Shown in pieces: positions 23,673 through 33,950 of a DNA stretch of 35,715 nucleotides. Source of the DNA: Patescibacteria group bacterium (lineage in GTDB: Bacteria; Patescibacteriota; Microgenomatia; UBA8517). The notes below the pieces were generated by a model, which had not been told where the DNA came from, did not search any database, and saw only the letters and a program-made list of their open reading frames with translations. The stretch lies in assembly GCA_025999275.1 (NCBI GenBank), contig AP024680.1:145013-180727 (forward strand), given 5' to 3'. Every line of letters starts with the position of its first letter. Within the stretch, counting starts at the first letter, position 1. Position numbers and translations under genes: made by a program.

Positions 23673-24760
23673 ACGAAAAAAAATTATCAAGGCGGATTTT
23701 GAAAATCAAGGCCTGGCTTTTAAAAACAAGGAGAAAAATCCTAAGTAATATTGTTCTCAAGCGAGTGTTGTTTGCTTCTTTTCTTTTTCTATTGGTGTTT
23801 TCTTTATTTTTTGTCATCTTTCGATTAATTAAGAATTCTGGTGCTTTATATTATGCTCGGCTTATAAAGACATTTGTAGTTTCCTCTCCGTCTGATTTTA
23901 GGTCAGATAATTTAAAAAGAGTTAATTTTTTGGTTTTAGGGAAAGGAGGGGCTGGTCATGAGGCGCCAGACTTGACTGATACAATTATGTTTGTTTCTTT
24001 GTCTTTGGAAAAACCTCGTCTCGTTTTAATTTCCTTGCCGCGTGATATTTGGATTCCTAGTCTTAGAGCAAAATTAAATAGTGTTTATTATTGGGGAAAT
24101 CAAAAAGAGATGGGGGGTGGTTTAGTTTTGGCTAAAGAAGTTGTTTCAGAGATTGTTGGTCAACCTGTACATTATAGTTTTGTGGTTGATTTTTCTGTTT
24201 TTAAAGAGGTAATAGATATTTTGGGTGGTGTTGATGTTTATGTTGAGAACGCATTTGTTGATAATTGGTATCCAATTGCTGGTAAGGAGAAAGACAATTG
24301 CAATAACGATCCTCTTTTTAAGTGTCGCTATGAAACAGTAAGGTTTGAAAAAGGTTGGCAGAAAATGAATGGAGAGACTGCTTTAAAATTTGTTCGTTCC
24401 AGAAAGGCAGAAGGGGATGAAGGGACAGATTTTGCAAGAGCAAAAAGGCAGCAAAAGATAATGGCTGCTATTAAAGACGCTTTGTTGAAAAAAGATTTTT
24501 GGATGTCTCCAGAGAAGATAAAAAGACTTTGGCAGGTAGTTTTTAAATATGTGGAGACGGATATTGACAATAAAGCTATTTTTGCTTTGTTGCGACGGTT
24601 TGTTGCTGCTGGCAACAACATAAACAGTTTTGTTTTGGATGAGAATCTGCTTACTAATCCTCCAATTTCTTCCAAATATGATAATCTTTATGTTTTTATT
24701 CCCAAATCTGGAAACTGGGACCAGGTTCACTCTTGGGTTCAGGGAATTTTGCTTAATTAA
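23666..24760 (+). CDS. LytR-CpsA-Psr (LCP) family envelope glycopolymer ligase
   Basis: 364 residues: a basic cytoplasmic tail, one helix (about 33-54) and an external LCP domain. LCP enzymes move glycopolymers from polyprenyl-phosphate carriers to peptidoglycan or other surface acceptors. Family residues are DLTDT (102-106), LISLPRD with R126-D127, ILGGVDVYVE (185-194), ALKFVRSR (239-246) and GTDFARAKRQQ (253-263). Arg and Asp in these motifs bind the lipid pyrophosphate. C212 and C220 could form a disulfide outside the cell. It fits downstream of the GT4, GT2 and GT-C enzymes in this window as the final attachment step. Its 3' end overlaps the convergent GT-C gene by 8 bp. Confidence 0.93.
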   Translation: MANEKKLSRRILKIKAWLLKTRRKILSNIVLKRVLFASFLFLLVFSLFFVIFRLIKNSGALYYARLIKTFVVSSPSDFRSDNLKRVNFLVLGKGGAGHEAPDLTDTIMFVSLSLEKPRLVLISLPRDIWIPSLRAKLNSVYYWGNQKEMGGGLVLAKEVVSEIVGQPVHYSFVVDFSVFKEVIDILGGVDVYVENAFVDNWYPIAGKEKDNCNNDPLFKCRYETVRFEKGWQKMNGETALKFVRSRKAEGDEGTDFARAKRQQKIMAAIKDALLKKDFWMSPEKIKRLWQVVFKYVETDIDNKAIFALLRRFVAAGNNINSFVLDENLLTNPPISSKYDNLYVFIPKSGNWDQVHSWVQGILLN

Positions 24761-26171
24761 TTATTTCTAGTTTGTAAACATTCCCTTCTTGTTTCATGTT
24801 CAAATTTTTATCTTTCAGATTTATTTTTTCAATAAAATATACGGGTTTTTGGTTGACAAAGTTTTTTGCCATCTCTTCCCACTTATTTTGACCTTCGTTA
24901 ATAATCATAATGTCCGGTCTTAGTTTTTCTACCTTTTTTAGGTACCAAAGTGGGGTTGAATAACTCCACCAAGAAAAAATTACTGCATTTTCCTCGACAT
25001 TTTCAAAAACGGACCTTGCCCAAATTTCAGCTCTGTTATTTCCACTTTGGTCAACTAGGTTATAGTTTTTATAAATATTTTTATAAATTGGTATTAATAT
25101 GAAAATAATTATTATTGAGATTTTTGATAAAGTCTTAATTACCCTGTTTGCTTTGATTGTATTTAACTTTTGGGTGATTAGATTTAGAGTAAAAGAGTAG
25201 ATTAATATTAGGATGGTGTTATTTGTAATAAAATATCTTTCTATTGCCGCATTTGAGTAGTTTGCAGAGAAGAAGATGTTTAAAACAAATATTACCAAAA
25301 CTGAATAACTAATTTTTTCTTTTAGCAAGAATGCGGGAATGCCTATAATTGATATATAGAATGTTGCTTTAGTTATTTCTTCTTTTATTGTTATTAAAGC
25401 TTTAATTAAATTTAAAAGTGATTGATGGCTTAAGACCAGACTTTTTTGGGGTGAAAAATCAAGACCAAGAATATATTTTTTAAGATTATTAAAGCTGGTA
25501 AGGTCATAATCAATGGTGTATGCCCCTTTAATTTTGTAGATTAGAGGGATAATTGCATATAGCAATAAGCTAATGAATAAGAAAGATGTACTTAACAACT
25601 TTTCTTTTTTTGAAGTTTTACTTGAAAAAATAATAAAAATAAAGGAAGGGACCCAAAACAATGAAAGTAGATGGTTACCTAAAGAAACTCCAACAACTAG
25701 CCCCAGAATTGGTAGCAAATTATTTTTTTCCTCTTTAATTATTAAAATTGAGATATAGATAAATAAAGAAAACAGGAAGAAATGAAATATGTGGGGATCT
25801 GCTTTAATAGATGTTGACCAGAAAGTTTTGGTTGTGCCAAGAATAATTGGGGCAAGTAGCGATATTGTTTGGTTTTTTGTAATTAATTTTATTGTTCTTG
25901 ATAAAAACACCAAACCTAGTATAGAAAGAATTAAAGACAGGAAATTGGCTCTGAAAGCAATATTGCCAAAAGGGAAAATGTTTGTAAAAAATTTAAGAAG
26001 AATTATGTAGGAGGGATAGCCAGTTGGGTGGGATATATCAAAGGTATAGCCTATTGTTTGAAATTCTCCTGTGTCCCAAAAATCAACAGATGGAAGAATT
26101 GTTTTGAGGTATAAAACAAAAAGTATGGCAAAAGGTGCCTTGGTTGTAATTTTTTTTAGTAACTCACCCAT
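24753..26171 (-). CDS. DUF2723-like polytopic O-mannosyltransferase-type (GT-C) protein
   Basis: 472 residues, about eleven helices. The N-terminus has the DUF2723 pattern: PSVDFWDTGEFQTIGYTFDI with D33 and E36, then SHPTGYP (47-53), LLKFFTNIFPFGNIAFRANFLS. This family is related to protein O-mannosyltransferases, with the Asp in the first external loop as the likely base. A soluble C-terminal segment (about 375-472) includes RSVFENVEENAVIFSWW and RPDIMIINEGQNKW. The acceptor is unknown. The 5' end overlaps the preceding gene by 16 bp. Confidence 0.85.
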   Translation of the reverse strand: MGELLKKITTKAPFAILFVLYLKTILPSVDFWDTGEFQTIGYTFDISHPTGYPSYIILLKFFTNIFPFGNIAFRANFLSLILSILGLVFLSRTIKLITKNQTISLLAPIILGTTKTFWSTSIKADPHIFHFFLFSLFIYISILIIKEEKNNLLPILGLVVGVSLGNHLLSLFWVPSFIFIIFSSKTSKKEKLLSTSFLFISLLLYAIIPLIYKIKGAYTIDYDLTSFNNLKKYILGLDFSPQKSLVLSHQSLLNLIKALITIKEEITKATFYISIIGIPAFLLKEKISYSVLVIFVLNIFFSANYSNAAIERYFITNNTILILIYSFTLNLITQKLNTIKANRVIKTLSKISIIIIFILIPIYKNIYKNYNLVDQSGNNRAEIWARSVFENVEENAVIFSWWSYSTPLWYLKKVEKLRPDIMIINEGQNKWEEMAKNFVNQKPVYFIEKINLKDKNLNMKQEGNVYKLEIIN

Positions 26172-27301
26172 TGGAATTTATTAATCCACAAAACACCCCA
26201 AAGATTAACTATTATTGAAATGAAAAGTAAAATCCAGTGAATTTTTTTTAGTTTCGTTTTAGCAACTCCCCTTATGGTTAAAAGAAAAAGAAAAGGATAA
26301 AAGTCAACAGCATATCTATATCCGAATTGGGTAAATCCAGTGCCACCATGACTTAGTATAATTGTGGAAATTAGGAAAATACTAATCCAAGACCATTTTA
26401 CAACCATTTCTTTTATTGGCGCAAAAAGAGAAAAAACAAAAGCGGGAGTTGTGAGCCATATAGCCATACCAGCCCATGATGGAATAATGTAAGGAAAGTG
26501 GCTGATGATTTTTGGCATACCCAAAAGTAGTATTTTAAGATGGTCTGGGATATAGGAAATATTAACCAATCCCTTTTGGTACCACGGTTCTTCAAATATT
26601 CCAGGAATTTTTGAATAACCCACATCAAAGATTGTCCCAAAACGAATATAGTTGTAAATACTGTTGAAAATAAAAAATGGCATAAAGCCAAGGATTAGTT
26701 TTGCAAATTCTTTAACACCCTTCTTTTTTAGAAGAAAAATAAAAAAGGGGATGCAAATGATAATGTTTACTCTTGAAAGATAAGCAGCTCCAAGAAAAAC
26801 GCCTATTTTTATAGGGTCGTCTGAGGTTATTAATTTATAAATTGCAAGAAGCAAGAAAAGACAGGCTGTTATTTGACCTAAGTACCAGGAAGATCCAACC
26901 GAAGATAAAAACCAAATAATTGTGCCAAAACCAGACAGAAGAGATGACCAAATTGCAAGTTTTATATTCTTTTTTATTTTTAAAGAGAGGTTAAAAACAA
27001 CAACTGGAATTAAGGCACCGATAATATGGGCAATATATTGTTGTTGAAAATTTTTAAATATCATTAGGAAGGGAATAAGCAATATTGCTGGCATTGGCGG
27101 GTGAACAATGTAAAATTTACCATCTCCGCTAGGAATTAGCTCTGAAAGCCAAGGAGGATTCTCATCGATATAGTATTTTCCTTCTAAAAATGCTTGGGAC
27201 AGTCTTAGAAAATAGTCATATGGGGTTTTGCCAGCTGAAGTGATAATATAAACTAGAAGAAAAAGAAAAAAAATAAATAGTGAGGGTGTCATTTTGCGCA
27301 T
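26156..27301 (-). CDS. Polytopic membrane protein, GT-C glycosyltransferase-like
   Basis: 381 residues with about ten helices. The first external loop has DYFLRLSQAFLEGKYYIDE and then IVHPPMPAILLIPFLM, the arrangement of RgtA/GT39-like enzymes (HPP after the loop), but the usual Asp-Glu pair right after helix 1 is not obvious; the Asp in TPYDYF is the best candidate. The middle has GAAYLSRVNIIICIPFF, also seen in this group. A second ATG three codons in (27292) is an alternative start. Its first ATG overlaps the ATG of the divergent gene. Substrates are unknown. Confidence 0.7.
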   Translation of the reverse strand: MRKMTPSLFIFFLFLLVYIITSAGKTPYDYFLRLSQAFLEGKYYIDENPPWLSELIPSGDGKFYIVHPPMPAILLIPFLMIFKNFQQQYIAHIIGALIPVVVFNLSLKIKKNIKLAIWSSLLSGFGTIIWFLSSVGSSWYLGQITACLFLLLAIYKLITSDDPIKIGVFLGAAYLSRVNIIICIPFFIFLLKKKGVKEFAKLILGFMPFFIFNSIYNYIRFGTIFDVGYSKIPGIFEEPWYQKGLVNISYIPDHLKILLLGMPKIISHFPYIIPSWAGMAIWLTTPAFVFSLFAPIKEMVVKWSWISIFLISTIILSHGGTGFTQFGYRYAVDFYPFLFLLTIRGVAKTKLKKIHWILLFISIIVNLWGVLWINKFQWVSY

Positions 27302-29204
27302 GGTTAATTACATATTCCTTTTATTGGGAATTATTTACACAACAATTTTACCAGGTTTTTTAGTGGTTGGATTCTTGTTTCCCAATCTTAAGTTGTGGGA
27401 AAAGATTCCACTTTGTTTTCTTTTAAGTGTAATTATATCCACTATTTTTTCTTATCTTGCTGCTCTAGTTTTTGGCCTTTCAAGAGAGACATTGTTGGCG
27501 TGCTTTATTTTCTTTGTAATTCTTTTGTTAGTTTTAGTTTGGAAAAAAGGTTTGCCTAGTTTTTCAGGTCTTCAAGAGTTAAAAAGGGAGATAATCTTTG
27601 GAATTTTGGTTTATTTAATATTTTTTACTGCTCTTTTACCTGGAATTTTTACTTATAAAAATGGTTATTTTGTGATGTCTGGGCCAAATTGGCAGGATAC
27701 AGCAATGCATCTTTCGATAATAGAAAGTTTGGCTCAAGGGAACTTTCCTCCCCAAGCTCCTTATTTTTCAGGACAACCGCTTTCTTATTATTATTTCTCA
27801 GATTTGCACGCAGCAATTATTAACATCTTTTATGGTGATTTTTTCCCTCAGGTTTTAGTCTTAATTAATCCCTTTTTTGCGATGACATTTTTCTTTTCAG
27901 TTTATGCGCTTTCATTTTCTATTTTAAAGAAAAGGGGTCTTTCAATTGTTGCGGGATTAATGGCGGTTTTTTATAGCAATATGAAATTTATTGATCTTTT
28001 TATATATCTTTTCTCGAATTGTGTTGGATATTTTCGGTTAGTGGCTGAAAACCCTTTTCATCTTGATCAGGAGCTTTTTCAGATGGTGCCGATGTCGGAT
28101 TATTTTCTGCAAAACAGGCCAATGATGGTTGGTCTTCCTGCTTTTGTTTTGACGATTTTGCTTTTATTGGAAGGTGTTAAAAAGAATAAATTTGATTGGA
28201 AAAAAATATTTTTAGCAGGTTTTATAACAGCTGCTCTTATTAAGTTTCAACTCTTTGGTTTTGTGGTTTCCTGGCTTTTCCTTGGGCTTTGTTTACTTTT
28301 CAAATTGATAGTTGAGAAAAACAGGCTAGTTGATTTAATTAGGGTTGTTGTTGTATTTGGTTTTTGGACCTTTTTATTTTCGCTAGGCTTTGGCTTTTCC
28401 AATATAGGATCAAGGTCCTTAATTTCTGTCTTTTTACAGAGCTTTGACTGGGGCCCATGGCAGTCTCATCCTTTGACCTGGTTTTTTCTGTTTATTTTTG
28501 CGAACTTTGGGCCAGGTTTTTTTATTTTTCTTATTGGCTTTTGGTTGCCAAAATTGAGGAGAAAAACAGAAGTTCTTATTCTGTATCTAATCTGTCTTAC
28601 TCTTTTTATTATTCCGTTTTTGTTTAAATTCACAATTTACGCTCAGGATATGTTTAAATTTTTTTATTATGCAGTCCCTTTAGTTAGCTTTCTTGTTGTA
28701 TTTTTCTTTAGTTTTATTCCTGATCAAAAAGGAAGAATGTTTTTGTTGTCTTTAATTTTGTTTTTTACTTCTTTAACCTCTGTAAACCTTCTTTTCCATT
28801 CGTTTTTAAACAAGAATATTGCTTATAGTTTGGCTGATTATAAAGCTGGTATGTGGATTAGGAATAATATTCCTGAAAAATCTGTTTTCGTAACTTTGCC
28901 TACTGTTCATTCAGCACCTGCTGACATAGGGGGTAGGTTAAGAATTATCTCTTATATTAACTGGCCCTATTCGCATGGTTTTGACCAGGGGGAAGACAAT
29001 GTTTTTTCAAGGGCATCTGATGTAGAAAAAGTGTATGGTTCTGCTGATGTGAGGTATGTTAAATTTAGATATAATGCCAGGTATATATATTATGGAGAAG
29101 AGGAGAGACAGAAATTTCCAGATGCAGTGTTAAAATTTGATCAAAATATTCATTTAAAGAAAATTTATGATGAGGATGGTATAAAGATTTATGAAATTTT
29201 TTAA
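27300..29204 (+). CDS. Large polytopic membrane protein, DUF2298/YYY-like GT-C family
   Basis: 634 residues from ATG 27300; a TTG at 27294 has a better spaced Shine-Dalgarno (GAGGGTG near 27282-27288) and is a real alternative. About twelve to fourteen helices. The large external loop after the fourth or fifth helix carries GPNWQDTAMHLSIIESLAQG and GQPLSYYYFSDLHAA. The Asp next to the helix and the YYY stretch recall DUF2298/Chlor_Arch_YYY proteins, which are putative polyprenyl-phosphate-dependent sugar transferases. The C-terminal 130 residues are soluble. It overlaps the next GT-C gene by 14 bp, suggesting coupled expression. Confidence 0.65.
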   Translation: MVNYIFLLLGIIYTTILPGFLVVGFLFPNLKLWEKIPLCFLLSVIISTIFSYLAALVFGLSRETLLACFIFFVILLLVLVWKKGLPSFSGLQELKREIIFGILVYLIFFTALLPGIFTYKNGYFVMSGPNWQDTAMHLSIIESLAQGNFPPQAPYFSGQPLSYYYFSDLHAAIINIFYGDFFPQVLVLINPFFAMTFFFSVYALSFSILKKRGLSIVAGLMAVFYSNMKFIDLFIYLFSNCVGYFRLVAENPFHLDQELFQMVPMSDYFLQNRPMMVGLPAFVLTILLLLEGVKKNKFDWKKIFLAGFITAALIKFQLFGFVVSWLFLGLCLLFKLIVEKNRLVDLIRVVVVFGFWTFLFSLGFGFSNIGSRSLISVFLQSFDWGPWQSHPLTWFFLFIFANFGPGFFIFLIGFWLPKLRRKTEVLILYLICLTLFIIPFLFKFTIYAQDMFKFFYYAVPLVSFLVVFFFSFIPDQKGRMFLLSLILFFTSLTSVNLLFHSFLNKNIAYSLADYKAGMWIRNNIPEKSVFVTLPTVHSAPADIGGRLRIISYINWPYSHGFDQGEDNVFSRASDVEKVYGSADVRYVKFRYNARYIYYGEEERQKFPDAVLKFDQNIHLKKIYDEDGIKIYEIF

Positions 29205-31623
29205 TAAGAATAAAAAAATAATTTTTATTTTGCTTGCTGCTTTTGTTTTCAGATTACTGATATCTTTTTTTGGAACTTTAGATATTGATTTTAATACTTT
29301 TTTGGGCTGGAGTTATCGTTTGGTTAAACATCCCTTACCTGATTTTTATAAAGAGTGGTCTGATTATCTTCCTGGATACCTTTATATTCTTTTTATTTTG
29401 GGAAAAATAAAGAATACTTTTGGTTTTGTCCCCAATGAAATTCTTTATAAATTCCCTGCAATAATCGCTGATATAGTTAGCACTTTCTTGGTTTATAAGA
29501 TTGTCTTTCGTCTTAAGGGTCAAAAGACTGCTTTAATGTCTGCCTTGTTTTATGCTTTTAATCCAGCTATTTTTGCGAATTCTTCGCTTTGGGGACAGGT
29601 TGATAGCTTGACTATTCTTTTTTCTCTTCTCTCGCTTTATTTTTTTGATAGTTCATTTACCCTTTCAGCTATTTTTCTAGCTTTTGGAACAGCGGTTAAG
29701 ATTCAAGCATCCTTGACTGTTATTCCAATTTTATTTTTGTTTTGGACTAGGAAAATCAATATTAAAACTCTTTTTAATTACGGACTCATTGCTCTTTCCT
29801 TTTTCTTACTAACATTTCTACCTTTTTTGCCTTTCGGAAAAGATTTAAATCAGTTCCCGCTTTTTGTTTGGGAGAGGGTGGGACAAACTTTAAATCAGTA
29901 CCCTTACACTTCTGTTAATGCTTTTAATTTTTGGGGACTTTTTGGATTTTGGCAACCTGACCAAAAAGTTTTTACTTCGATTTTTTCGTTTCTGATACTT
30001 TTTTCTTTAAGCATTTTTTCTTTTTTGAGATTAAAAAAAGTTAAGGGTGCTCAATATTTAATTCTTACTCTTGTTTTTTTTGTTTCTTTCCTTTTTTTTC
30101 CTAGGATGCATGAGAGACATTTGTTGCCTGTTTTTGCTCCGCTTTTGATCTCCGCTAGTTTGTTTACCGATCTTCTTGTTGTTTATATTTTTCTCTCAAT
30201 TTTATATTGTCTTAATCTTTATTATTCTTTTATTTGGATAACTGATAATTTTAAAGTTGTGTTTTCTGATTTCTTTATTAAAATTCTAATTTTCTTTGAA
30301 ATTTTAACTTTTTCATTACTTTTGAATGTTGGCTGGTCAGGGAAGACAAGGTTGATTTATTTCTTTAAAGATAAGTTATATTCCTTATTTCATTCTGCAA
30401 ATAAACCTTCTGCCAAACTTTTTTCTAACGCTGGTTTGCCTAGAGAAAGAGCTAGGATCTTTTTGATTTTGATCTTGATGTTTGCTTTTATTTGTCGTGT
30501 TTACAGACTTGGTATTCCTGAGAAAGAATATTTTGACGAGGTATATCATGCCTTTACTGCTCGTTTAATGCTTCATGGTGATCCAAAGGCCTGGGAGTGG
30601 TGGAACCCGCACCCTGAAGGTTATGCTTATGAATGGAGCCATCCTCCTTTGGCAAAAATTGGAATGCAGATTGGGATGATTATCTTTGGTGAAAATTCTT
30701 TTGGGTGGCGTTTTCCTGCAGCTTTACTTGGGACATTGTCTGTTCTTTTGGTTTACCTTATTGGGAAGGAGGTTTTTAAAGATGAGATTGCTGCTTTATT
30801 TTCTGCTTTGTTTTTTTCTCTTGACGGTCTTTTTTTGGTTCTCTCAAGAATAGGAATGAATGATTCTTATTTATTATTTTTTTCTCTTCTTACTATTTAT
30901 CTTTTTCTTAAAGATAAAATTTTACTTTCAAGTTTGTCATTTGGTCTTGCTTTATCTTCCAAGTGGAGTGCTGTCTGGGTTGTACCCATTTTGTTTACTG
31001 CTTTCTTTGCTTTTGGTAAGAAATTAAAGTTTGATTATATTTGGTTTTTAATTTTGCCGCCTCTTGTTTATATTGCAAGCTACACCCAAATGTTTTTGAC
31101 TGGTCATTCTTTTGATATTTTTGTTGGTGTTCAAAAGCAAATGTGGTGGTATCATACGGGGCTTAAGGCAACCCATCCTTATACTTCTCCCTGGTGGAGC
31201 TGGCCTTTATTGATTAGGCCCATCTGGCTTTATACCAATTCTTTTGGTTCGGGTATGATTGCTAATATTTATGCATTCGGTAACCCAGCGATCTTCTGGT
31301 TTGGTTTAGCCTCTATTTTTATTACTCTTTATTATGCTTATCTTTTCAAAAATAAAAGATTAGGTTGGCTTGTATTTTCTTATCTTGTTTTCTTTGTTCC
31401 TTGGTCGCTTTCGCCTCGAATTATGTTTTTGTATCATTATTTACCGTCAATTCCATTTTTGTCTTGTGCTATTGGATTTGTTTTAAGAAAAAATATTAGG
31501 CTTTTCTTACCTTATCTGGTTACTGCTTTTGTTCTTTTTGTGTATTTCTATCCCCATTTAATTGGTTTGCCTATTAATATAGCGATTGATAACTCTTTTT
31601 ATTGGTTTTCCTCATGGAGATAA
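29191..31623 (+). CDS. Fusion of two GT-C modules: Gpi18-like mannosyltransferase and PMT-like (GT39)
   Basis: 810 residues, about twenty helices. Module 1 (about 1-395) resembles Gpi18/PIG-V-like or related polytopic mannosyltransferases: DIDFNTFLGWS near residue 31 in the first loop, LPGYLYILFILGK, and NSSLWGQVDSLTILFSLLSL. A basic linker (about 385-420) follows. Module 2 (about 425-810) is a dolichyl/polyprenyl-phosphate-mannose protein mannosyltransferase: EYFDEVYHAFTARLML with D449-E450, WSHPPLAKIG (482-491), GWRFPAALLGTLSV, SRIGMNDSYLL and LALSSKWSAVW. Both modules are expected to use polyprenyl-phospho-sugars outside the membrane, so one chain could add two consecutive sugars. Acceptor unknown. 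Confidence 0.85.
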   Translation: MKFFNKNKKIIFILLAAFVFRLLISFFGTLDIDFNTFLGWSYRLVKHPLPDFYKEWSDYLPGYLYILFILGKIKNTFGFVPNEILYKFPAIIADIVSTFLVYKIVFRLKGQKTALMSALFYAFNPAIFANSSLWGQVDSLTILFSLLSLYFFDSSFTLSAIFLAFGTAVKIQASLTVIPILFLFWTRKINIKTLFNYGLIALSFFLLTFLPFLPFGKDLNQFPLFVWERVGQTLNQYPYTSVNAFNFWGLFGFWQPDQKVFTSIFSFLILFSLSIFSFLRLKKVKGAQYLILTLVFFVSFLFFPRMHERHLLPVFAPLLISASLFTDLLVVYIFLSILYCLNLYYSFIWITDNFKVVFSDFFIKILIFFEILTFSLLLNVGWSGKTRLIYFFKDKLYSLFHSANKPSAKLFSNAGLPRERARIFLILILMFAFICRVYRLGIPEKEYFDEVYHAFTARLMLHGDPKAWEWWNPHPEGYAYEWSHPPLAKIGMQIGMIIFGENSFGWRFPAALLGTLSVLLVYLIGKEVFKDEIAALFSALFFSLDGLFLVLSRIGMNDSYLLFFSLLTIYLFLKDKILLSSLSFGLALSSKWSAVWVVPILFTAFFAFGKKLKFDYIWFLILPPLVYIASYTQMFLTGHSFDIFVGVQKQMWWYHTGLKATHPYTSPWWSWPLLIRPIWLYTNSFGSGMIANIYAFGNPAIFWFGLASIFITLYYAYLFKNKRLGWLVFSYLVFFVPWSLSPRIMFLYHYLPSIPFLSCAIGFVLRKNIRLFLPYLVTAFVLFVYFYPHLIGLPINIAIDNSFYWFSSWR

Positions 31624-31666: not shown

Positions 31667-32518
31667 CTAAAAAGCGATAGTAAAAGCGATAGTTAGTAAG
31701 ATAACACTGCCTAGGATGTTTATAATTGTTGGGTAGGAGATACCTGATTCTGGAATGGGTGCTAGGGAAGGTGTGGGTGTAACAATTGGGATGGGTGATG
31801 TACTTGCTGCAACGATTGTGGCGCTTGGTGAAGCTGTTGGGGTGGGGTTTGTTGGGTCAAAAGTGGCTTGTGGGGTTTCGGATGGCGGTGTTTCTGATGT
31901 AACAATGTAAGAGCCGCTACTTGATGGATTTAAAAGAATATCTTCTGCTGTCGATTTATCTGTGACTTTACTTGTGGTGGGATTAAAAGTTAGGTTGATT
32001 GATCCTGGTGATTGGGCTTTAAAGTTAATTGTAGCAATAACTTCTTCTCCATTTGTTTTATATCCTTCACTCGAGCTGTTTAAACCACCAATTCTTATTT
32101 CTACATTTTTTTCTTGTGTATTGTTGTTCACCGATTTTATTGGGAAGCTCCAATTGTTGTTTACTACCAGGCTTGAATTTACCTGAACATCAGTAGCTAA
32201 AATAGGGGGGGTCTCTTCTTGGTATGAATAGCTTAGATTTATGGTTACAGCTGATATATATCTTCCTGCAGTATCAAGTAGTATGTTAACAGAAAATGCT
32301 TGACCTTCTTTTATATTTTTTGTTTCAGGGGAAAGGAAAACTTTTACTGTTCCAGTTGGTGTTACTGCTTTTTTTCTAATTTCTTGTCTTTGATTGACTA
32401 AGATTATGCCAATAGCTAGTCCCGTTACTAATAGTAGTATTCCTAGTATAGCAATTAAGATTTTTTTGTTTTCCCCTTTTTTTTCTTGGATTTCAATATC
32501 TGTTTCTTTTGATCCCAT
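31667..32518 (-). CDS. Secreted cohesin-like domain protein with N- and C-terminal membrane helices
   Basis: 283 residues. Helix 1 (about 20-41) is followed by NQRQEIRKKA (42-51). Residues about 55-205 form a beta-sandwich resembling cohesin domains: VKVFLSPETKNIKEGQAFSVNILLDT, then AVTINLSYSY, then EEVIATINFKAQSPGSINLTF. A Pro/Thr/Ser linker (about 206-255) leads to PESGISYPT (256-264) and a terminal hydrophobic helix. Cohesins bind dockerins in cellulosomes, but related modules are widespread adhesion domains, so surface binding is inferred. The last eight residues are a duplicated TIAF from a 12-bp tandem repeat. It shares both end motifs with the Fn3 protein upstream. Confidence 0.8.
   Translation of the reverse strand: MGSKETDIEIQEKKGENKKILIAILGILLLVTGLAIGIILVNQRQEIRKKAVTPTGTVKVFLSPETKNIKEGQAFSVNILLDTAGRYISAVTINLSYSYQEETPPILATDVQVNSSLVVNNNWSFPIKSVNNNTQEKNVEIRIGGLNSSSEGYKTNGEEVIATINFKAQSPGSINLTFNPTTSKVTDKSTAEDILLNPSSSGSYIVTSETPPSETPQATFDPTNPTPTASPSATIVAASTSPIPIVTPTPSLAPIPESGISYPTIINILGSVILLTIAFTIAF
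31670..31693. repeat. 12-bp tandem duplication at the end of the cohesin-like gene
   Basis: AAAAGCGATAGT occurs twice in direct succession (31670-31681 and 31682-31693). It encodes TIAF-TIAF, the last eight residues of the protein, right before the TAG stop. Confidence 0.95.
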
Positions 32519-32579
32519 TTTTGTGCTTGCTCATTTTTAGTAATAACTCATAGAGGAAGGGCTTGTGTTTACCTAGTTC

Positions 32580-33950
32580 CTAAAAAAGCAAAAAACCACT
32601 TCCTACCAATAATAGTAACCCAGTGGTAAAAAGAAATAGGGTGGGCAAACTAAATCCTGAAATTGGCTGTATGGGAGTGGCGGTAGGTGAAGCATTTTTT
32701 TGAATTAAGGGTGTTGATGTGGCGATAAATGTTGGGGTTGCATTTGGTGTTGGTGTCGATGTTGAGGTTAATATTGGAGTTGGGGTGATGCTGGCTGATG
32801 GTGTAGCTTCAAAGGCTGGTTCATTTGCTTCTGATGCCTGTACAATAAATGTTTTTATAATGCTTCTTAAAACTCCATCTTCGTCTCTATAAGTAAGTGT
32901 AATTTTGTGAGTGCCGGGGGTTAATCTTGAAGGAGGACTCCATTTCCAAACACCACTGTTATTAGCATTTATTGTTGTTGTTTGAGGTTTTTCTGATTCT
33001 ACTGTAATGGTTATTGTTTTATTGGGGGGCGCCTTGCCAAAAAATTCTGGGTTTGTCGTATAAATAACTTCTCCTTCTTCAATGCTATCAATAGTTACAT
33101 TGTTGTTTGCAATTCCTTCATTGTCATAATCATTAACATTGAATTTTGGTTGTTTGGTTACTTGTTCCGGTGCCAGGATCTCTGCGGTGGGAATGGCTTC
33201 GCTCTTATTGGTGGTAATACCTCTGAAATCAAAATTTTGGCCTAGAGTGATAATTGGTGTGGGGTTTGCGTCTTGTAGATAAATTTGAGCAGAGGCAATT
33301 CCTTGAGGACCGGCATGTACGTTTATTTCAATCAATTCCTGACCCGTTGGCTGATAAGCATCTTTTAGATCCTCTGTCCTTAGTTCTAAAAGAGGAATTA
33401 TCCAATTACCATTTTCAGATGTATAGGTTGAGAGCAAACTTACTCCCTGGATTTTAGCAAACACCAGAGCTTGGTTGACAGGTGTGCCTATTGAGCTAAC
33501 AACAGAACCAGAAATATTCTTGATAGAAGAGTTGTTTTTAGTGTTTAGAGAGGAACCCGTTTCGATTTCCCAGGGTGTACCATTGTTGTCATAGGTGCTT
33601 GTGTTTGAGATTATTTTGAAGTAATAAATTGTTTGGGGTTCTAGGTTTCTTATGGTTGCAAAGTGTGTGTATCCTTGACTTTTAGTTTCCTCAGCAGTAG
33701 TTTGGTTTAAGGATGTTTTGCTTTTTCCCCAGATAATGGAACCATTCGATTTGTCTTGGGTGGTCCAGCTAACAGAGAAGGAAGAATCTGTGATATTTGA
33801 GATTTGGACATTTTGGGGTGCGTTTTGAGACTTGGCTTTTGGTATAAGAAGTTGCTTTTGTCCAACCAATATTACAGAGAAGGATAGACCTAAAGTTAGT
33901 ATTATTATGGCAATGATTGTTGGAATTTTTACCTTTCTCATTTTGTTCAT
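32580..33950 (-). CDS. Secreted Fn3/Ig-like multidomain protein with N- and C-terminal membrane helices
   Basis: 456 residues; AAAGGAT just before the ATG at 33950 supports this start. Helix 1 (about 10-29) is followed by GQKQLLIPKA (30-39). Domains: a fibronectin type III-like domain (about 44-135; SNITDSSFSVSWTTQD, NLEPQTIYYFKI), a carboxypeptidase-regulatory-like beta domain (about 144-225; GSVVSSIGTPVNQALVFAK, ENGNWIIPL), and an Ig-like domain (about 300-373; GVWKWSPPSRLTPGTHKITL). A Pro/Thr/Ser linker (about 380-428) ends in PISGFSLPT (429-437) and a hydrophobic tail. It looks like a surface protein without a catalytic domain. It lies downstream of pilN-pilO and may belong to that export context. 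Confidence 0.8.
   Translation of the reverse strand: MNKMRKVKIPTIIAIIILTLGLSFSVILVGQKQLLIPKAKSQNAPQNVQISNITDSSFSVSWTTQDKSNGSIIWGKSKTSLNQTTAEETKSQGYTHFATIRNLEPQTIYYFKIISNTSTYDNNGTPWEIETGSSLNTKNNSSIKNISGSVVSSIGTPVNQALVFAKIQGVSLLSTYTSENGNWIIPLLELRTEDLKDAYQPTGQELIEINVHAGPQGIASAQIYLQDANPTPIITLGQNFDFRGITTNKSEAIPTAEILAPEQVTKQPKFNVNDYDNEGIANNNVTIDSIEEGEVIYTTNPEFFGKAPPNKTITITVESEKPQTTTINANNSGVWKWSPPSRLTPGTHKITLTYRDEDGVLRSIIKTFIVQASEANEPAFEATPSASITPTPILTSTSTPTPNATPTFIATSTPLIQKNASPTATPIQPISGFSLPTLFLFTTGLLLLVGSGFLLF

Follow-up and report, generated by a model that had tools for sequence, protein, structure and literature searches.

A candidate variant LPXTG-type sorting signal on unrelated surface proteins of Woesebacteria and their near relatives

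Two neighbouring surface proteins encoded in the window, the whole stretch of 35,715 nucleotides analysed here (positions 145,013-180,727 of a complete genome of 785,860 bases), end with the same type of short C-terminal tail, which is probably a variant LPXTG-type sorting signal of Candidatus Woesebacteria and near relatives, read by a housekeeping sortase. LPXTG-type sorting is already known, and the LPx[AST]GxSxPT form lacking a basic end is most likely a variant of it. The tag is carried by the two neighbours and by many unrelated surface proteins of relatives; as it resembles, in altered form, the one used by Gram-positive bacteria to fix proteins to their cell wall, these proteins are likely targets of a widespread enzyme, and the tail family provides a concrete candidate signal and a substrate list for the near-ubiquitous sortase of Microgenomates.

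Both genes are located on the minus strand. Protein 1 (31667..32518, 283 aa) is a cohesin-like surface protein comprising an N-terminal anchor, a cohesin domain, a Pro/Thr/Ser linker and the tail. Its uncharged 22-residue helix, the putative signal anchor, spans residues 20-41 (32396..32461), the N-terminal motif ILVNQRQEIRKKA occupies residues 39-51 (32366..32404), with A51 invariant in 21 relatives, and the tail consists of PESGISYPT and a 19-residue helix reaching the last residue (31670..31753, 28 aa). Protein 2 (32580..33950, 456 aa) is a Fn3/Ig-like surface protein showing an N-terminal anchor, the N-terminal motif ILVGQKQLLIPKA at residues 27-39 (33834..33872), whose A39 does not vary among 21 orthologues, domains of the Fn3, carboxypeptidase-regulatory-like and Big_13 types, a Pro/Thr linker and the tail PISGFSLPT, again followed by a 19-residue helix up to the last residue (32583..32666, 28 aa). 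Read from the proline, the tails are PESGISYPTIINILGSVILLTIAFTIAF in protein 1 and PISGFSLPTLFLFTTGLLLLVGSGFLLF in protein 2, each exactly 28 residues long, with IPESG and QPISG respectively at the LPXTG position and neither Lys nor Arg after the motif. The coordinates, the positions of the N-terminal motifs, the exact 28-residue tails and the missing basic cluster reported in the initial annotation were all accurate for both proteins.

The central regions of the two proteins, which had been described as unrelated, indeed proved to be so. As modelled, protein 1 is a cohesin fold: the AlphaFold model (pLDDT 82) shows helices at residues 16-51 and 262-282, and the best 34 Foldseek matches were all solved cohesins, with TM-scores normalised by target up to 0.77, placing the domain at about residues 58-207 (31898..32347). 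The Pfam cohesin match of protein 1 was weak and under the cut-off, and relatives reached an E value of 1e-12. A BLASTP comparison between protein 1 and protein 2 returned similarity at the two ends and the Pro/Thr linkers only (E about 0.03). A duplicated gene pair with diverged middles was ruled out because the folds differ and the tail is present at many loci in many genera.

A profile built from the window tails added a third tail protein of the own genome to the two of the window, a 169-aa Pro/Thr-rich protein ending with LPEAGVSWPTILGVAGGAIMLIISLLLAL, and gave matches in 36 of the 56 relatives. With the iterated profile, 64 of the 281 class genomes gave a match, and every one of the 28 that were sampled from the order of Candidatus Woesebacteria and kin, within the Microgenomates group, was among them, in agreement with the distribution guessed beforehand. 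The resulting consensus consists of LPx[AST]GxSxPT and, behind it, a 19-residue helix whose last residue directly precedes the stop codon. Counting the 73 motif-bearing tails (three further matches have a broken motif), Pro at position 2 and Gly at position 5 occurred in every one, position 4 was Ala in 38, Ser in 21 and Thr in 9, and the distance from Leu to the stop was exactly 29 residues in 58, while that from PT to the stop was exactly 19 residues in 61/71. No Lys or Arg was found in the helix or at the end of 63 of these 73 tails, so that the missing basic cluster noticed in the window extends to most of the family.

The tail is a C-terminal element in the fetched loci, where 74 matches fall at most 9 residues from the stop and one elsewhere. 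Since these loci had been chosen as motif matches, the valid control is a shuffle and not the raw count: the pattern P.[STA]G...P[TSA] followed by exactly 19 residues ends 54 of 1,363 reading frames, against 0.015 expected from shuffled C-termini, and away from C-termini the motif appeared three times in 221,099 residues. Tailed proteins have at least five unrelated kinds of middle and belong to dozens of genera. The middles are cohesin-like (20), Pro/Thr-rich and often bearing a Cys-rich insert (17), Cys-rich (7) or Fn3 (5), the remainder being one group of 3 and singletons, with a loose naming of the smaller groups. The profile search proposed in the initial annotation therefore revealed a general C-terminal module of unrelated secreted proteins, neither confined to close homologues nor explained by duplicate genes. 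The existence of the family, the variety of unrelated proteins that bear it, its constant length and its missing basic end are all readable from the sequences themselves, as are the length of the N-anchor, the sortase with its distribution and the LPx[TSA]G proteins next to accessory sortases described below.

The family shares several features with LPXTG signals (PF00746, TIGR01167) and their housekeeping sortase (PF04203), namely the LPx[ST/A]G motif followed by one C-terminal hydrophobic helix, a Pro/Thr-rich spacer, and the occurrence of many unrelated surface proteins with one dispersed enzyme. It differs from them in the missing basic end, the prevalence of Ala at position 4, the extra xSxPT, the mostly constant 29 residues from Leu to the stop and, at the N-terminus, an apparent signal anchor where LPXTG proteins have a signal peptide that is cleaved off. 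The earlier statement that the tail is unlike LPXTG holds for the two window copies, which gave no match to PF00746 or TIGR01167, but not for the family, whose consensus is LPx[AST]G and whose members are scored by the LPXTG models below the cut-offs. Some type-A tails match PF00746 and TIGR01167 in register at 12-14 bits (cut-offs 20 and 15.9). Furthermore, Fn3 orthologues from other genera carry LPETGSLTPT... or LPESGNLTPT... with Lys/Arg-containing ends where the window protein has QPISGFSLPT, and the tail of one of them scored 19.4 bits with the Pfam model Gram_pos_anchor (PF00746, cut-off 20) and 15.2 bits with TIGR01167 (cut-off 15.9). We consider these orthologues, one of them falling just under the cut-offs of the LPXTG models, as a first reason to link the tail with a sortase.

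A second reason comes from accessory sortases, since at about 20 of 56 such loci the sortase gene adjoins a same-strand gene for a protein with LPx[TSA]G, a helix and a basic end, whereas this canonical tail was found in none of 1,994 control frames. The motif and the C-terminal helix are common to these proteins and the tail family, and the adjoining tails include LPKAG and LPEAG, so that Ala at position 4 does occur beside sortases in these genomes. The accessory pairs differ from the tail family in their mostly ordinary AxA signal peptides, in their Lys/Arg-rich ends and in the location of their genes beside the sortase.

The initial annotation had found no processing enzyme in the window; the own genome encodes two sortases outside it, at 208 kb and at 344 kb. 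The one at 208 kb, the candidate housekeeping enzyme (PF04203, 94.5 bits against a cut-off of 26.6), belongs to an operon of a BpJ-like gene, the sortase gene and ruvX, followed in the own genome by a MltG-like gene. Sortases of PF04203 are present in 55 of the 56 relatives, and the RuvX-linked clade, in which the His/Cys/Arg triad H132/C201/R212 is invariant, in 262 of the 281 class genomes; the model of this sortase matches solved sortases, the best being C. perfringens SrtD. The intact triad and the operon add to the reasons for the sortase link. Sortase and tail genes are not adjacent and lie roughly 30 kb apart in many genomes, a linkage dropped as functional evidence as the intervening stretch is a housekeeping block (DnaK, Clp ATPase, NusA, IF-2, Lon, FtsK, AlaRS and similar, as read from sequence). 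A sortase family of CPR bacteria, fam000526, has been described as near ubiquitous in Microgenomates and is probably the same enzyme group; passages of that paper dealing with fam000526 name no substrate or sorting signal for it (PMC6744442). In the open-access papers searched we found no description of the targets or sorting signal of the Microgenomates sortase; the signal may have been described elsewhere.

The sortase extends over the class, far beyond the order to which the tail belongs, and its presence alone thus says little. A simple profile of tail against sortase presence is likewise uninformative with a nearly universal sortase, and family f32 alone is of help. None of the 7 sampled f32 genomes has the sortase clade, the tail or the full-length Fn3 protein, and in the two genomes where the locus is visible the sortase is absent and the BpJ-like gene abuts ruvX with a four-base overlap (L193 1501-1504, L194 1845-1848). 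Strong matches to the Fn3 protein were instead obtained in 19 of 19 sampled sortase-bearing genomes outside the order (one per family). This joint absence supports the sortase link and, f32 being one clade, counts as about one event. Within the order a single genome (G036) has the tail and no sortase; since ruvX is missing as well, an assembly gap is likely, and we rejected it as a counter-example. In genomes from outside the order, the tail of the Fn3 protein has often degenerated, and some observations speak against the sortase: G055 and G075, from sortase-bearing families, have Fn3 tails without the PxxG motif, and G064 and G098, which are only 83-86% complete, have the Fn3 protein without a sortase. 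The scarcity of Lys/Arg ends and the prevalence of Ala over Thr at position 4 also weigh against it.

The N-terminal region contributes to the proposed mechanism. The uncharged stretch preceding the N-terminal motif has a median length of 22 residues, which is typical of a membrane-spanning anchor and not of a cleaved signal peptide. Signal peptidase I follows the established -3,-1 rule, and the charged residues before KA in the motif do not fit this enzyme. Because of the length of the stretch and of these charged residues, helix and motif together look like an uncleaved signal anchor, contrary to the N-terminal removal suggested at first. According to the sortase reading, export would proceed through Sec, and the uncleaved anchor (the 22-residue helix, then LVxQRQxIRxKA) would keep the protein in the membrane. 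The C-terminal 19-residue helix would insert so that LPx[AST]G comes to lie on the outer face of the membrane, and the sortase would cut between [AST] and Gly and link the newly formed C-terminus to an acceptor molecule, which is probably a peptidoglycan precursor. That the enzyme is the RuvX-linked sortase, that it cleaves the tail, what it links the protein to and what the anchor does are inferred here, the N-anchor possibly replacing the missing basic end as membrane retainer.

The distribution of basic ends is compatible with such a replacement. Type-A proteins have an N-anchor and no basic end, proteins beside accessory sortases have mostly cleavable AxA signal peptides together with basic ends, and the Fn3 group has an N-anchor together with a basic end in many genera; as a correlation in a limited sample, this fits a basic end needed for membrane hold only when the N-anchor is absent. 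More tentatively, the tailed proteins could act as membrane-to-wall staples, with the N-anchor remaining in the membrane and the C-terminus fastened to the wall by the sortase; the loss of the basic end would then be explained by the N-anchor, which keeps the protein at the membrane anyway. If true, this would represent a new architecture of sorting signal and, for a minimal bacterial envelope, a covalent connection between membrane and wall.

The main competing explanation is that the tail is a membrane anchor only, the protein forming a loop held at both ends with nothing cleaved, LPxxG and PT capping the helix, and the two terminal helices possibly packing against each other by way of their glycines. 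We regard this plain two-ended anchor as a serious rival, if an unlikely one. The absence of a basic end, the constant distance from PT to the stop, as expected of a helix with just the length needed to cross the membrane, the length of the N-anchor, which suggests that it is uncleaved, and the Gly-rich nature of both helices are all consistent with it, but the fixed Pro and Gly and the LPx[AST]G consensus would be needless in a plain anchor, and Fn3 orthologues, like the proteins next to accessory sortases in these genomes, carry the same motif with a basic end.

We consider it improbable that the tail is read by another enzyme, such as an as yet unrecognised exosortase-, rhombosortase- or myxosortase-like membrane protease. 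The PEP-CTERM/exosortase, GlyGly-CTERM/rhombosortase and MYXO-CTERM/myxosortase systems likewise combine a short C-terminal motif with a helix on many unrelated proteins, and the fixed xSxPT extension and lack of a basic end set the tails apart from known sortase signals, all of those known to us having such an end; moreover, only three tail proteins occur in the own genome. However, the signature motifs of the three systems differ from that of the tail, which is of the sortase type, their tails end with a basic cluster, and a search for exosortase gave no match in the own genome, for which it was rejected as the processing enzyme, or in 51 of the 56 relatives (E <= 0.001).

We consider it very improbable that, as first proposed, the motifs at the two ends belong to a single matched system and are both removed. 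Both motifs do occur on both window proteins and the N-terminal profile matches 37 of 74 tail proteins, but many proteins have the N-terminal motif and no tail, others have the tail and no such motif, and the charged residues before KA do not suit signal peptidase I. The motif is class-wide (52 of 56 relatives), on tailed and untailed proteins alike, the latter including loci at 704.6 kb and 743 kb of the own genome, and about a quarter to a third of tail proteins bear a different anchor of the type RLYQLRQxxVAPxxP. On this distribution, the N-terminal motif is real and is not coupled to the tail.

The sortase reading makes surface proteins callable from sequence in these uncultured bacteria, and turns into a testable question whether a sorting signal can do without its basic end in a protein that has another membrane anchor. 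The accessory sortases with their adjoining LPx[TSA]G-type proteins (L141, L271, L274, L283, L286, L287, L291, L294, L297, L309, L313, L314, L319, L322 and L325, most tails being basic-ended) are ready-made predicted enzyme-substrate pairs in Microgenomates genomes. The second sortase of the genus (L002 3-899, L117 3-752) lies two genes from a Pro/Thr-rich protein that ends with a helix and a basic cluster and has no LPXTG motif.

Finally, some features of the surrounding genes were recorded. A search of the own genome for dockerin (PF00404) gave no match; in relatives, dockerin-like repeats occur on N-anchored proteins beside tailed surface proteins (L056, L073, L083), which suggests a cohesin-dockerin assembly on the cell surface in those relatives, the own genome being without dockerin. 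Protein O-mannosyltransferase-like genes (PMT, TMEM260-like, DUF2298) occupy 24753-31623 of the window and end just before the two surface proteins, whose Ser/Thr-rich linkers may be glycosylated. A recurrent pair of neighbours (L009 1321-2985) consists of an N-anchored protein ending with ...YTIPxGVxxFxVxAxIHHxxLGWF and a Pro/Thr-rich tailed protein, often preceded in relatives by the Fn3 protein.
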